The position numbers were made by a program, and so were the translations under genes. From a virus, in IMG/VR virus record IMGVR_UViG_3300034166_000594, positions 1-40,634 of that record: DNA of 40,634 nucleotides; one strand, written 5' to 3'. The notes under the pieces were generated by a model. That model did no database searches and had not been told where the DNA came from. It worked only from the letters and a program-made list of their open reading frames with translations. This document shows positions 12,356-18,387 of this stretch, one piece after another (within the stretch, counting starts at the first letter, position 1; each line of letters starts with the position of its first letter).

Positions 12356-12384
12356 TTGACAGGATGACGCGGTACATGTATAAT
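12356..12384 (+). promoter_or_regulatory. Consensus sigma70 promoter for the rightward cluster
   Basis: TTGACA (12356-12361) and TATAAT (12379-12384) are perfect consensus hexamers separated by exactly 17 bases, in a region where AT-rich hexamers are rare. Transcription should start near 12391, giving a leader of about 50 bases before the first gene at 12441. Host RNA polymerase should use it immediately after infection. Two CGGGGTTGC repeats lie immediately upstream and could bind a regulator. Confidence 0.9.
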
Positions 12385-12440
12385 GTAGGTGCGCCCCCGA
12401 CTCCCCGGCGGCGCGCCACCCGATACGCGAGGAATCCGCC

Positions 12441-12692
12441 ATGGACCGTACCACTACTCCCGCCCTTTACACCCCGGAAGGCGACGCCCTGTTGGTGGCG
12501 TATCGTGCGGCCGGACAGTCCGTTGACGACGCATGGTATGCCCTGTGGCGCGCGCAGCACTGGAACGCCAACTACTCAGACAAGGTGGACACTCTCCCAC
12601 TGGTGGCAGCCTTGAACGACGCCATCGCTGCCTTCCGTGGGCATACGGCGCTGGTGGATGGCATGCTAAGCGGCCCCGTCGTCGCCAAGTAG
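12441..12692 (+). CDS. Small early protein, 83 aa
   Basis: I do not recognise this 83-aa product. It is mildly acidic and helical, with LYTPEGDALLVAYRAAG near the start and aromatic residues WYALWRAQHWN in the middle. It is the first gene behind the consensus rightward promoter and has the leader GAGGAATCCGCC (12429-12440) shared with other genes in this cluster. First genes behind strong host-type promoters are often host-takeover proteins; that role is inferred only from position. Confidence 0.6.
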   Translation: MDRTTTPALYTPEGDALLVAYRAAGQSVDDAWYALWRAQHWNANYSDKVDTLPLVAALNDAIAAFRGHTALVDGMLSGPVVAK

Positions 12693-12701
12693 TCACCCCC
12701 C

Positions 12702-12726
12702 GGGGGCGTCCACTCCGGGCGCCCCC
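12702..12726 (+). terminator. Intergenic GC hairpin (attenuator-like), cassette linker 1
   Basis: GGGGGCG (12702-12708) pairs with CGCCCCC (12720-12726) around an 11-base loop. There is no T-run, so it is probably a weak attenuator or an mRNA end stabiliser rather than a full terminator. It is one of a family of similar hairpins between genes of this cluster and is followed by the shared leader GAGGATTCCCGCC. Confidence 0.5.
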
Positions 12727-12757
12727 ACAACCCCGCATAACCCAGAGGATTCCCGCC

Positions 12758-13378
12758 ATGAAGCTTCGCATCTCCGCCCCCGCTCTTCGTATCGTCGCCC
12801 CCCACATTTCGGAAGATCCATCCCGCCCCATCCTAGGGGGGGTGTCGGTGGAAACGTCGGGGGTGATTGTCGCCACCGACGGAACGACACTCTGCGCGCA
12901 CCACCACGGGGCGACCATTGCCGATTCTGATTCCGGTTCCGTCGCCCCCGTTATCGTGCGGTTCCGCCGCATCCGCGAAGCACTCGCCCGCAAGGTGGAA
13001 ACGGTGGAGGTGGACGTCGGCAGCAACCGGGGGGCGGCCGATCTCGTCGCCCAGTTGGAGGATGCGCGCGGGGCGTTGATCGGCACGACGCTGGTGGACA
13101 TCGTGGATGGCCCATACCCTCTCTGGCGTGGGGTGGTTCCGGCGGTAGATCGGGAACCGGTGTCGATTGCAGCTGTAGGGATTGATCCTAGCCTGCTTGC
13201 CCGGTTCGGCACCTTCCCGAGCGGCAAGAGTGGCGCCGCACACTTTCGGTTTACCGGGCAGGAATCCGCCATTCTCGTGACGCATCCCCACCGTACCGAT
13301 ATCATTGGCCTGTGCATGCCCTATAAGTACGTCGACAATGGGGCGGGGGCGGCCGCGTTCGCTTGGGCCGCAAAGTAG
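12758..13378 (+). CDS. DnaN-like sliding clamp protein
   Basis: The 206-aa product resembles phage-encoded relatives of the DNA polymerase III beta clamp. It has VIVATDGTTLCAHHHG, equivalent to the clamp's VATDGHRL strand; a central DGPYPLWRGVVPA, equivalent to the D..FPDYR..IP segment; and a C-terminal DIIGLCMPYKYVDN, equivalent to the final GVVMPMR-like strand that lines the partner-binding pocket. It is shorter than bacterial DnaN (about 370 aa), so perhaps it holds one to two clamp domains and assembles with more subunits. No phage DNA polymerase gene is present, so it may recruit or redirect host polymerase. Leader GAGGATTCCCGCC precedes the ATG. Confidence 0.75.
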   Translation: MKLRISAPALRIVAPHISEDPSRPILGGVSVETSGVIVATDGTTLCAHHHGATIADSDSGSVAPVIVRFRRIREALARKVETVEVDVGSNRGAADLVAQLEDARGALIGTTLVDIVDGPYPLWRGVVPAVDREPVSIAAVGIDPSLLARFGTFPSGKSGAAHFRFTGQESAILVTHPHRTDIIGLCMPYKYVDNGAGAAAFAWAAK

Positions 13379-13389
13379 CGCACACAACC

Positions 13390-13418
13390 GGGGGCGCCTC
13401 TACTTCGGGGGCGCCCCC
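13390..13418 (+). terminator. Intergenic GC hairpin (attenuator-like), cassette linker 2
   Basis: GGGGGCGCC (13390-13398) pairs perfectly with GGCGCCCCC (13410-13418) around an 11-base loop. It is followed by CTACCTTC and then the shared leader, not by a T-run. It lies directly behind the clamp gene. Confidence 0.55.
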
Positions 13419-13444
13419 TACCTTCACCTTAGAGGATTCCCGCC

Positions 13445-13660
13445 ATGTCCTACGCTACCCGTTCCGGCATTGTCCCCCGTGTTTCCGTGCGGTGGCATCG
13501 CATCCCCCATAGTGGGGCGGTCGTCGTATCCGCCCTGCTTTTCAACCGTTTGGTCACCCGGACCTATTACGACTATTCCCCCCGCGAAGCGCTCGCCGAG
13601 TTCCGGGCGGAAATGGCGGAAGAATATGGGGCGGGGTGGTCCACCCGGGGGGCGGAATAA
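13445..13660 (+). CDS. Small early protein, 71 aa
   Basis: This 71-aa product is not a family I recognise. It has a beta-rich N-terminal half (PRVSVRWHRIPHSGAVVVSA) and a C-terminal amphipathic helix (YSPREALAEFRAEMAEEYG). The shared leader GAGGATTCCCGCC precedes the ATG. Its stop overlaps the start of the next small gene (TAATG), so the two are translated together. Confidence 0.55.
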   Translation: MSYATRSGIVPRVSVRWHRIPHSGAVVVSALLFNRLVTRTYYDYSPREALAEFRAEMAEEYGAGWSTRGAE

Positions 13661-13845
13661 TGCCCCCCCGCACGTCCCTCCCCGCGCGTCCCCGGGTGGC
13701 CCTTTCCGGCCGCCTGGACGACCTGCGCCAGCTCGTCGCATGCTACGGGGATATCCCCCTCCGCGTCCTGGCGCGCGACCTGGCGGGCCCGGATGCTCCC
13801 GACTATCCGCCCGCACATATGCCCGCGCGCGCACTCTTGACGTGA
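13660..13845 (+). CDS. Small basic early protein, 61 aa
   Basis: The start at 13660 shares a base with the preceding TAA (TAATG coupling), and no shared leader is present, unlike most genes of this block. The 61-aa product is basic at the N-terminus (MPPRTSLPARPRVALSGRLD) and then helical (DLRQLVACYGDIPLRVLARD), a pattern that could bind nucleic acid. I do not recognise the family. Confidence 0.45.
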   Translation: MPPRTSLPARPRVALSGRLDDLRQLVACYGDIPLRVLARDLAGPDAPDYPPAHMPARALLT

Positions 13846-13867
13846 CACTAGCCTAGTCGCATACTAT
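13837..13867 (+). promoter_or_regulatory. Possible second rightward promoter
   Basis: TTGACG (13837-13842) and TACTAT (13862-13867) are separated by 19 bases, two more than ideal. The element overlaps the stop codon of the preceding gene. It would give the LPD29 gene its own start point; the downstream order (GC hairpin, then shared leader) copies that behind the main promoter. Confidence 0.35.
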
Positions 13868-13870
13868 TTA

Positions 13871-13901
13871 CGGGGCGCACGCAATCCGGCGGCGCCCCCC
13901 G
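13871..13901 (+). other. GC hairpin in the leader of the LPD29 gene, cassette linker 3
   Basis: CGGGGCGC (13871-13878) can pair with GCGCCCC plus following bases (13892-13901). It precedes the shared leader GAGGAATCCGCC at 13920-13931. It is probably part of the 5' leader if the promoter at 13837-13867 is real. Confidence 0.4.
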
Positions 13902-13931
13902 TAGTCCCGAACCCATCCCGAGGAATCCGCC

Positions 13932-14525
13932 ATGCCCGCAACCGCTAAAGAAGTTTCCCGCCGTTTGACTGTTACCGAGGTCGCGCGCATGATTCGCGCG
14001 GATCTTCGGCACACGTTTCCCGCCGTGAAGTTCCGGGTATATCAAGGGTCCGGGGGGGGATCATTGAACATCGTGTGGACCGATGGGCCGATCGGGCGCG
14101 AGGTGGACGCCATCGCCGGCCAGTATCAAGGGGCAGGGTTTGACGGGTCCATAGATCTAGCGTATTCCGTGGACGCGTGGGTATTGAATGGGGAAGTTAT
14201 CGGCCATCATACGACCGGCACCGCCGACTCCCGGGGGAGCGTGCCCGCGTATGGGATCATCCCCCCGCACGACGACGCCGAGCTATGGACGCTCCCCCGC
14301 GTCTACGTTTGGACGCGCCGCCGGGCCAGTGTCGCCCGCCTTGCCGAACAAATCGCCCGCCTGGCGCATGCTTGGCGCATGGACGCGCCCGCCATCGCGG
14401 AATGGCACGATAGCGGCGCGTATGTCGACCCTACCCGGGAGCAGGATCTCCAGTGCTGGAACCGTACCCACCGCTATTGGGCCGAACTGCTACAATGGGA
14501 CACCGAGCAAAGCGGCAACGCTTAA
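13932..14525 (+). CDS. LPD29-domain protein
   Basis: The 197-aa product matches the LPD29 pattern (large polyvalent protein-associated domain 29). It begins with LTVTEVARMIRADLRHTFP, then VKFRVYQGSGGGSLNIVWTD with GPIGREVDAIAGQY, then a GFDGSID segment, then a C-terminal region with helices around RLAEQIARLAHAW. LPD domains occur in polyvalent proteins of phages and mobile elements that are thought to be delivered early into the host; their biochemical activity is not established. Here the domain stands almost alone, in an early cluster with its own shared leader. The N-terminal helix-turn region may bind nucleic acid. Confidence 0.7.
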   Translation: MPATAKEVSRRLTVTEVARMIRADLRHTFPAVKFRVYQGSGGGSLNIVWTDGPIGREVDAIAGQYQGAGFDGSIDLAYSVDAWVLNGEVIGHHTTGTADSRGSVPAYGIIPPHDDAELWTLPRVYVWTRRRASVARLAEQIARLAHAWRMDAPAIAEWHDSGAYVDPTREQDLQCWNRTHRYWAELLQWDTEQSGNA

Positions 14526-14529
14526 GCAT

Positions 14530-14566
14530 CCCCCCAGCCCCTCGGCATCCCGCCGGGGGGCGCCCC
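14530..14566 (+). other. GC hairpin between early genes, cassette linker 4
   Basis: CCCCCC (14530-14535) can pair with GGGGGG (14555-14560), which also forms a tight palindrome with the following CGCCCCC. CTACTCTT and the shared leader GAGGAATCCGCC (14575-14586) follow. The GGCGCCCCCTAC string also occurs behind the clamp gene hairpin. Confidence 0.45.
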
Positions 14567-14586
14567 CTACTCTTGAGGAATCCGCC

Positions 14587-15045
14587 ATGCCGCACGCCCC
14601 CGCCGTTCCGTATACCGTCACCGTGTCGTTTGTGGTGGACGGTGCCGCCAATCCTACCGACGCCGCGCGCATCATTGCCGATTATCTGGACGCGGCCGCT
14701 ACCCTCCTCCCGCGCGCGGATATCCCCGCCGTCTATGTGGACACGGCCGCCCCCGCATGCGGCACAGCGGCCGATGCTGTCGCGCGCCAGCTGGGGCACG
14801 ACGGCACGCGCTGGCGCACGGACGACGGTTACACCATAGACGACCTGGTCCGCGCGTTCGGCGGCACCATCGAGCATCACCCCGGGCGGGACCGCGACCT
14901 GGGGCGTTACGGCGACGTGTGGCGTGCCATCTTCCCCGACGGGTCCGTCATCACGGCATCCGGGGGCGCCTGGGATATCGGCTACCCCGAGTGCTGGTGC
15001 TGGCAAGGCAACGGGCACGAGAACTGCTCGGCCGGGGAGGGCTGA
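14587..15045 (+). CDS. Early protein, 152 aa, with C-terminal Cys/Trp motif
   Basis: I do not recognise this 152-aa family with certainty. The N-terminal part reads as an alpha/beta domain (VTVSFVVDGAANPTDAARII). The C-terminal half has GDVWRAIFPDGSVITASGGA and then WDIGYPECWCWQGNGHENC, a pattern seen in small phage proteins of unknown role; the clustered Cys and His could bind metal. The shared leader GAGGAATCCGCC precedes the ATG. The first 15 bases of the coding sequence are the same as those of the next gene (MPHAP), which may reflect cassette duplication at the start. Confidence 0.55.
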   Translation: MPHAPAVPYTVTVSFVVDGAANPTDAARIIADYLDAAATLLPRADIPAVYVDTAAPACGTAADAVARQLGHDGTRWRTDDGYTIDDLVRAFGGTIEHHPGRDRDLGRYGDVWRAIFPDGSVITASGGAWDIGYPECWCWQGNGHENCSAGEG

Positions 15046-15048
15046 ACC

Positions 15049-15276
15049 ATGCCGCACGCCCCCCGCCTCCACCTTCCCCCGGCCGTGCTGGACGTGGTGC
15101 GCGACCTGCTAAGGGACGCGCGCGCTACCTACCGGCACGTCCGGCAGGACCCGCACCGCCCCGACGCGGCCGACCTGGTGGCGTATGCCGACCTCTGCCG
15201 CGAACAATCCCGCGTACTCCGCTCCGGCCGGGACTATCGGCTCAACAAGTACGGCTGGCCGGAGATCCTCCCCTAA
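15049..15276 (+). CDS. Small helical early protein, 75 aa
   Basis: This is the last gene of the rightward cluster, three bases after the preceding stop. The 75-aa product is helical and basic (PAVLDVVRDLLRDARATYRH, then LCREQSRVLRSGRDYRLNKYGWP). I do not recognise the family. Coding ends just before a hairpin with a T-rich tail, so this closes the operon. Confidence 0.55.
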   Translation: MPHAPRLHLPPAVLDVVRDLLRDARATYRHVRQDPHRPDAADLVAYADLCREQSRVLRSGRDYRLNKYGWPEILP

Positions 15277-15296: not shown

Positions 15297-15333
15297 CCCC
15301 CCGGCGGCCAGAGCGCTTCCGGGGGGCGCCTTA
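15297..15333 (+). terminator. Intrinsic terminator of the rightward cluster
   Basis: CCCCCCGG (15297-15304) pairs perfectly with CCGGGGGG (15319-15326), a 14-base loop lies between them, and CGCCTTATTT follows. It lies 20 bases after the stop of the last rightward gene. Confidence 0.7.
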
Positions 15334-15445
15334 TTTCCGGCCCGATTCCCCCCGCATCGCACCCTACCCCTTCCCCCGCCCCCGTTCGTGCCCTGGCGAC
15401 CCCTCCACGCGCCCGCACGGGGGCCTTCCGCGCCAGCCTCCCCCG

Positions 15446-15499
15446 CGCGCACCTCCCGCGCACCTCCCGCGCACCTCTCGCGCACCTCTCGCGCATCCC
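15446..15499. repeat. 11-bp tandem repeats (iteron-like)
   Basis: Four full units of CGCGCACCTCY and a partial fifth follow head to tail, in an otherwise gene-free stretch between the operon terminator and the candidate small RNA promoter. The 11-base period is about one helical turn, so every unit faces the same side of DNA, as in protein-binding iterons. Low-complexity GC drift is the alternative. Confidence 0.6.
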
Positions 15500-15536
15500 G
15501 CCCGCTGGCCCGCGCAAGCTCCCCGCGCGCCCCCCC

Positions 15537-15565
15537 TTGCGCGACCTGGCCCGCGCGCGCATAAT
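15537..15565 (+). promoter_or_regulatory. Candidate promoter of a small RNA
   Basis: TTGCGC (15537-15542) and CATAAT (15560-15565) are 17 bases apart. The -10 hexamer has five of six consensus bases and the -35 three of six. No open reading frame follows, but a set of hairpins and a terminator lie within 100 bases. Confidence 0.5.
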
Positions 15566-15570
15566 GGGGC

Positions 15571-15663
15571 AGCGTCACCTTGGCGGGTTGGCGCGACCGG
15601 ACGTGATCCGGCACCTCCTCGGGTGCAACCCCTCCCCGGCTCCGGCTGGCGGAGGGGTTTGTC
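15571..15663 (+). ncRNA. Candidate structured small RNA, about 93 nt
   Basis: Between the promoter above and a terminator, the sequence has three consecutive hairpins: CCGGA/TCCGG (15597-15601 and 15607-15611, loop CGTGA), GCACC/GGTGC (15611-15615 and 15622-15626) with the loop TCCTCG, and the terminator stem. The loop TCCTC is complementary to the GAGGA ribosome binding site in the leaders of the rightward cluster. There is no start codon with a ribosome binding site. It is not a canonical tRNA: the anticodon-like arm has a 5-base loop and the T-arm motif is missing. Function is unknown; binding to ribosome binding sites is only a suggestion. Confidence 0.5.
15627..15660 (+). terminator. Intrinsic terminator, possibly bidirectional
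   Basis: AACCCCTCC (15627-15635) pairs perfectly with GGAGGGGTT (15651-15659), followed by TTGTCGT on the plus strand. It also lies 30 bases past the stop of the leftward HNH gene, so it may block converging transcripts from both sides. Confidence 0.7.
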
Positions 15664-15688
15664 GTATCCGCGCGCCTCGTGCCCGCGC

Positions 15689-16183
15689 CTAGTCCCGCGC
15701 CCGCACGACGAGCCCGAATTTCACGCAGATGTCCCGATGCTTCCGCCGGGAATACTGTCCCCCGCAATGGGCGCAGGTGATGCGGCATCCCGTGGGATTG
15801 GCCTTGGCCTTGTCTCGCGCCTTGGCCTTGGCGATGGCCTTCCGCTTGCGCTCCGCCGCGATGCGCTTTTGCTCCGCGACGGTCCGGAAGGTGTAGCGGG
15901 GATGGTAGTGCGTATGGCAGGGCAAACACACCAGCTGAAGCCACGTCAACGACGGCTCGTGGCCGATCACGTCGGGGTAATAAAAGTGGTGGACGTGTTC
16001 ACCTTTGGCCTGGTGGCACCGCTCGCACCGCCCGCCAGCACGGGCGATCACCCGCTGGCGCTGGGCGTGCCATGCGTCCCGGTCCACTCGCTTCCCTTTC
16101 TTGGGGCGCTGCTGAACACGTTTGCGGCGGCGGAGAAGCTCCTCGGGGGTGTATCCGGCGGGGTCAATCGTCGGAGGTCGCAT
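15689..16183 (-). CDS. HNH endonuclease with C-terminal zinc finger
   Basis: I choose the ATG at 16183 (164 aa); a TTG further upstream (16264) would add a low-complexity Arg-rich extension. The core HNH domain is CERCHQAKGEHVHHFYY, with the H-H pair, then LVCLPCHTHYHPR, giving the Cys4 zinc site and the catalytic His. A Lys/Ala-rich linker helix follows and then a second zinc finger (CAHCGG ... HRDIC). It is the last leftward gene, alone after a 700-base gap. It is either a homing endonuclease or, less likely, a packaging-associated HNH nuclease; the latter usually sits next to terminase. Confidence 0.75.
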   Translation of the reverse strand: MRPPTIDPAGYTPEELLRRRKRVQQRPKKGKRVDRDAWHAQRQRVIARAGGRCERCHQAKGEHVHHFYYPDVIGHEPSLTWLQLVCLPCHTHYHPRYTFRTVAEQKRIAAERKRKAIAKAKARDKAKANPTGCRITCAHCGGQYSRRKHRDICVKFGLVVRARD

Positions 16184-18175: not shown

Positions 18176-18372
18176 CAGCGTCCCCCCACCTTCGCTGCCT
18201 GCTGTACGGCCTGCTGTACGGCCTGTTGCGCTGCCACTGCTCGCAACACCACCTCGGCACGGCGGCGGTCGTACTCGATCTGCGCCGCCCGAGCCTCCCG
18301 AACGCGGCGGGCAAACCAGGCGGCGATGGCGACCACCATGCCGAACAGGCCGAACAGGACAATAGCACTCAT
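18175..18372 (-). CDS. Small membrane protein with coiled tail, 65 aa
   Basis: It has an N-terminal membrane segment (IVLFGLFGMVVAIAAWF) followed by a charged helix with the Gln-rich repeat QQAVQQAVQQAA. The direct repeat is also visible in DNA as CTGTACGGC copies around 18205-18225. It lies 15 bases after the RusA gene. The pattern could fit an Rz-like or membrane-anchoring protein, but the place in the replication operon argues against lysis. Confidence 0.45.
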   Translation of the reverse strand: MSAIVLFGLFGMVVAIAAWFARRVREARAAQIEYDRRRAEVVLRAVAAQQAVQQAVQQAAKVGGR

Positions 18373-18387
18373 GGCGAATCCTCGGGG

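Follow-up and report, generated by a model that had tools for sequence, protein, structure and literature searches.

The locus studied here raises the question whether a small RNA (sRNA) gene lies where rightward and leftward transcription of a phage genome meet and, if so, on which mRNAs its product would act. The window, i.e., the whole 40.6-kb virus record that was analyzed (40,634 bp; about 68% G+C), contains terminase, portal, head and tail genes, endolysin, primase-helicase and exonuclease, and nearly all of its genes are leftward. The sole rightward block comprises the genes from 12441 to 15276, 3′ of a promoter at 12356, and is presumed to be an early operon from this promoter and its gene content. 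The sRNA site was found 3′ of this block and before the leftward genes, the first being an HNH gene (15689–16180), in agreement with the location given in a preliminary description. Comparison with related phages makes it probable that the site encodes a multi-target antisense RNA of the phage, roughly 90 nt long and acting in trans, which would block translation of the early operon.

Structure of the Predicted sRNA Gene and Its Surroundings

The following elements, all on the + strand, were located at the operon boundaries and in the sRNA gene:

12356..12384, + strand: operon promoter, perfect consensus TTGACA-17-TATAAT (promoter scan)
15313..15336, + strand: terminator-like site at the operon end, ahead of the sRNA gene (one of three found in the scanned region, with 2.9 expected by chance)
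15537..15565, + strand: sRNA promoter, −35 TTGCGC (15537–15542), 17 nt, −10 CATAAT (15560–15565) (sequence; relatives)
15572..15594, + strand: hairpin 1 with the conserved loop UUGGCG(GG) (10 homologues; complementarity to start regions)
15597..15611, + strand: hairpin 2, CCGGA-CGUGA-UCCGG (fold)
15611..15626, + strand: hairpin 3, GCACCUCCUCGGGUGC, with UCCUC at the tip (fold; co-fold with targets)
15627..15663, + strand: terminator-like hairpin (15627–15659) and short U-tract UUUGUC (fold; relatives)

The last rightward operon gene (15049–15276) starts 3 nt after gene 14587–15045 and does not carry the target motif described below. A tandem 11-base repeat (CCTCCCGCGCA-like, about five copies) was observed at 15441–15505 of the window, 3′ of the operon terminator and 5′ of the sRNA promoter, and this repeat is degraded in the relatives L005 and L007. 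The HNH endonuclease gene that adjoins the sRNA (15689–16180, − strand) is present in the window and in L006 and absent from L005 and L007; it is therefore probably a mobile insertion.

The promoter-like pair reported previously (TTGCGC, 17 bases, CATAAT) was recovered, and a promoter at the matching distance was found in homologues. Taken alone it is weak, with 8 of 12 consensus bases, which is under the cut-off of the promoter scanner. The 5′ end of the RNA is predicted near 15572 and the 3′ end near 15662, with a predicted length of about 90 nt. All three hairpins of the preliminary description are there, but the total is four, the one at 15572–15594 having been overlooked. This hairpin 1 is the best-conserved part of the RNA; it is made up of GCGUCACC-UUGGCG-GG(U)UGGCGC with one bulge, has the loop UUGGCGGG and contains the main target-pairing element UUGGCGGGUU (15580–15589). 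At the position of hairpin 2, several homologues have small hairpins of different sequence. The short T-run after the last hairpin is present (UUUGUC), but as a U-tract it is interrupted, poor and weaker than those of the relatives (CTTTTTGTT).

For the predicted 95-nt transcript, the computed folding energy was −53.7 kcal/mol with a z of −3.5, and one in 200 shuffled sequences did as well. The fold of a longer 144-nt stretch was not unusual (z −1.1), owing to the very high G+C content of the region. The site had been described as having no reading frame; a frame that spans the sRNA is in fact open from an ATG at 15564 to a TAG at 15692, though this ATG overlaps the −10 box. As regards sequence features, the locus shows what is looked for in a trans-acting sRNA gene, i.e., its own promoter and an intrinsic terminator without a conserved protein, together with a seed that is conserved and accessible and complements the start regions of mRNAs. 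A search of Rfam 15, which includes the C4 antisense RNA, gave no family at gathering score in the window, L018, L033 or L037.

Proposed Target Motif at the Operon Gene Starts

The complement of the sRNA loop, CCCCGCCA, was found over start codons. GAGGA(A/T)TCC(C)GCCATG is present at five rightward gene starts (12441, 12758, 13445, 13932, and 14587), and no exact copies were found in the window outside those five operon starts; the start regions of the leftward genes are ordinary and varied. The five sites and a weaker sixth candidate are:

12429..12443, + strand: target site 1, GAGGAATCCGCCATG, start of gene 12441–12692 (duplex −18.5 kcal/mol)
12745..12760, + strand: target site 2, GAGGATTCCCGCCATG, start of the RusA-like gene 12758–13378 (motif search, duplex)
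13432..13447, + strand: target site 3, GAGGATTCCCGCCATG, start of gene 13445–13660 (motif search, duplex)
13920..13934, + strand: target site 4, GAGGAATCCGCCATG, start of the LPD29-domain gene 13932–14525 (motif, duplex; Pfam LPD29)
14575..14589, + strand: target site 5, GAGGAATCCGCCATG, start of gene 14587–15045 (motif search)
18370..18383, − strand: possible sixth target, GAGGATTCGCCATG/CCCCGAGGATTCGCCATG, start of a 65-aa ORF, also in L053 (weaker: CGCCA only)

Family matches among the target genes were to RusA or to the LPD29 domain, and none of these genes was recognized as an antirepressor. In the window, UUGGCGGGUU pairs with AAUCCGCCA over 9 bp, including one G-U, a contact that needs hairpin 1 partly open. 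The UCCUC of hairpin 3 pairs with GAGGA just upstream of the main contact, in the correct antiparallel order, and both contacts were predicted for targets 12441 and 12758 by co-folds, which open stems and are only indicative. The pairing of the TCCTC loop with GAGGA that had been proposed earlier fits and is used in the co-fold, but it is secondary and less conserved than the contact of hairpin 1. An antisense pairing with the portal mRNA was also considered and rejected, the 18-nt near match having an E-value at chance level.

Homologues in Related Phages

No match to the window was found in a DNA search against annotated phages, no close cultured relative was found, and genome-collection searches gave no prophage relatives or host. 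About 100 related loci were collected by terminase and helicase searches, and a further viral scan with an operon protein gave no new relatives. L005 and L007 are identical to the window from 15566 to 15665 and also in the −35 box and spacer, have TAGGAT as −10 box where the window has CATAAT, and show 85% identity in the flanking non-coding DNA. The 100-nt identity was rejected as proof of constraint, since 9.5% of 101-nt segments are identical; identity of such length is unexceptional for this pair, and more distant relatives were therefore needed. Directly downstream of the sRNA, L007 (10760–10805) and also L005 contain a promoter-like partial copy (TTGCGCGAACGCTGGCCCGCGCGCATGTT), perhaps a decayed duplicate.

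A hairpin with the loop (U)UGGCGG followed by a terminator was found in L016, L018, L025/L026, L029/L031, L033, L037, L056, L081, and L099/L101, all uncultured phages, at the end of the operon running away from the small terminase gene and on the same strand. At the terminator position the relatives have a strong hairpin and a U-tract. The loop TGGCGG is invariant across 10 homologues and the stems have diverged. In these 10 homologues, 77.5% of the hairpin 1 stem cells were paired compared to 64.8% in shuffles (0 of 500 as high), and at most 62.5% when the alignment was slid; the covariation score of the stems was equaled by 1 of 500 shuffles, and all slid versions scored lower. Promoter-like pairs with the −10 box 15–18 nt before the loop G were present in 11 homologues (combined p 1.5e-10 vs. 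random positions), and the homologue set was also recovered without the promoter criterion. As the homologues were sought by loop plus terminator, these two features are partly built in, which is not the case for the target test; genomes inside one clade are not independent.

The window clade alone has UCCUC as a loop, which is missing from most homologues with a conserved hairpin 1, so that an anti-SD loop was rejected as a conserved feature. Covariance matches in L064/L065, L056 (5594), L030, and L073 were rejected on inspection, there being no terminator after them.

For the target test, a simple set of rules defined the gene starts: an ATG, an SD-like sequence and a product of at least 50 aa. 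Among 11 genomes, CCCGCC was present in the start regions of 19 of the 62 genes in the sRNA operon, compared to 1/57 on the same strand elsewhere and 3/296 on the other strand (19/62 vs. 4/353 elsewhere; Fisher 8e-14, about 1e-13). Counted once per ORF, runs of at least seven complementary bases were found in 32% of the operon start regions and in 1% of those on the opposite strand. Duplex energy was −15.3 for operon starts vs. −11.0 kcal/mol (difference 4.3, p 2e-9), a difference that none of 300 permuted loop elements reached. Matches to the own operon are weak in L033, L037, and L081.

Matched Change of the RNA and the Start Motif

Besides the complementarity shared with the window, several relatives showed a different loop together with a different start motif. 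L016 has the loop GGCGGU and a start with ACCGCC. The G019 RNA contains UGGCGGGGUUCC followed by CCUCCUCUGG, and starts in the G019 relatives L061, L068, L076, and L077 carry GGAACCCCGCC or AGGAACCCCGCC(A), with up to 12 bp matching the G019 RNA. In G021 and G022, the records of L076 and L077, UGGCGGGGUUUC is found 3′ of TTGACA-17-TAAGTT with a 9-bp match, and in G021 the UGGCGGGGUUUC RNA is located at the operon end on the same strand.

L055, L057, and L058 were found to be without the type-1 loop and without CCCGCC starts. These three have a second sRNA type, organized as a hairpin, a single-stranded UCUCCUCCUCUGA (exposing UCUCCUCCUCUG) and a terminator, at the following loci:

L055, about 13790–13930, + strand: second-type sRNA
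L057, about 12550–12660, + strand: second-type sRNA
L058, about 14060–14160, + strand: second-type sRNA, promoter TTGCGC-17-TAGCTT

The second-type RNA is on the strand opposite to the operon that it matches, and the starts of this operon carry CAGAGGAG. Starts with at least seven bases complementary to the own RNA made up 47%, compared to 18% on the opposite strand, and the type-1 loop matched only 3% of starts in these genomes. No other argument for the predicted pairing is as strong as this matched divergence. Computation showed the anatomy of the RNA, its conservation, the restriction of the motif to the operon, the complementarity and the concerted change of motif and loop. This comparative evidence lends good support to the earlier proposal that an sRNA gene acts on how the adjacent rightward genes are translated.

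The operon starts of L069/L066 and L039/L021 (− strand) showed repeated motifs of their own (ACAGGAG..., CCTCTGAGG...), unlike those of the window. On inspection of the regions no sRNA was recognized for these motifs, for which a matching RNA is predicted.

Alternative Explanations and Proposed Mechanism

The start motif might instead be a general strong translation signal or an operator for a phage protein, the sRNA being otherwise employed and the complementarity coincidental. CGCC-ATG after GAGGA could be a favored spacer, operon genes may share start cassettes, and C-rich spacers suit G+C-rich genomes. However, other genes in these genomes, structural ones among them, do not carry the motif, RNA and motif vary jointly in other clades, and permuted loop elements never reach the contrast, which makes this explanation unlikely. 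We consider it very unlikely that the site is only an insulator against convergent transcription, consisting of a promoter remnant and terminator hairpins without a regulatory RNA. Its location between convergent gene sets and the strong terminal hairpin would fit, and insulation, one of the tasks suggested in the preliminary description, may come about incidentally through the terminator; an invariant loop with changing stems and a promoter at fixed distance would nevertheless be left unexplained, and a separate terminator-like site already closes the operon ahead of the sRNA locus.

Binding to ribosomes through a 16S-like sequence had been suggested as well. Here the CACCUCCUC loop would copy the 3′ end of 16S rRNA and titrate SD sequences generally or compete for ribosomes. 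CACCUCCU is indeed the anti-SD core, and the type-2 RNAs of L055, L057, and L058 also expose UCUCCUCCUCUG, but the suggestion found no support beyond the similarity of CACCUCCU: the UCCUC loop is missing from most homologues with a conserved hairpin 1, and the conserved complementarity concerns the spacer plus AUG and is specific to one operon. We therefore give hardly any weight to this possibility.

As a multi-target antisense RNA, the transcript of about 90 nt would start from a sigma-70-type promoter of its own and stop at the intrinsic terminator. Hairpin 1 would present UUGGCGGG(UU), whose complement (CCCGCCA or AAUCCGCCA) covers the spacer and start codon in at least five operon genes, and in the window clade the UCCUC of hairpin 3 would make a second contact on the GAGGA ribosome site. 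Pairing would hide the ribosome site and AUG, so that shared translational repression of the operon would be the natural outcome. Transcription of the RNA, repression rather than activation, and timing are what we infer from these features. The accumulating RNA may switch the early genes off, or the RNA of a resident phage may silence a superinfecting relative. Since the operon promoter has a perfect consensus and the sRNA promoter is weaker, early mRNA could at first be made faster than the RNA, with silencing setting in later. The sequence evidence fits both the shutoff and the superinfection-silencing role.

In a broader reading, which is possible though we hold it tentatively, a lineage-private start motif on most early-operon genes and a matching sRNA loop would constitute a coevolving RNA-based silencing of the operon, possibly providing superinfection immunity. 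A resident phage would then silence its own and sibling early genes and spare other specificity groups, which would parallel repressor/stoperator immunity at the level of RNA. Most of an operon appears to be controlled by a single short RNA via a start-site motif repeated per gene, and within a large group of uncultured phages the RNA/motif pair seems to have split into several specificities that match. The system may serve as a directly testable model for post-transcriptional early-gene shutoff or RNA-based immunity, and similar systems could be sought elsewhere as start-region motifs confined to one operon with a complement in a nearby hairpin.

Comparison with Known Regulatory RNAs

Described phage antisense RNAs mostly silence one gene and are usually cis-encoded. 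In a literature search with incomplete coverage, no description was found of a phage RNA that matches gene starts throughout an operon. Staphylococcal RNAIII and RsaE-type sRNAs have C-rich hairpin loops that pair with the SD and start regions of several mRNAs. Compared by description, these are bacterial RNAs with UCCC-type loops directed against the SD, whereas the main loop of the window RNA is G-rich and would target the spacer plus AUG.

Nearest in working principle is c4 of phages P1 and P7, which likewise has loops against ribosome-binding or start regions and which is processed from the same transcript as its target. The two RNAs show no sequence relation, and c4 has a single target (ant), whereas the gene for the window RNA comes with a separate promoter and terminator, and at least five genes of the nearby operon are predicted targets. 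The c4 RNA is small and structured, with loops complementary to the phage ribosome-binding region, and blocks translation; its specificity differs between related phages, as seen in P1/P7 heteroimmunity (PMC12197685). P22 sar and sas and lambda OOP and aQ are also short RNAs of phages, which by pairing with phage mRNAs reduce or change their translation (PMC12197685). These four are cis-antisense RNAs for one gene each, whereas the window RNA would use short loops to pair with many start sites elsewhere. PreS of lambda and VpdS of VP882 are Hfq-dependent, phage-encoded trans-acting sRNAs that favor phage replication; PreS targets host dnaN, and VpdS influences host and phage RNAs (PMC12197685). 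Compared to PreS and VpdS, the predicted targets of the window RNA are in the phage's own operon.
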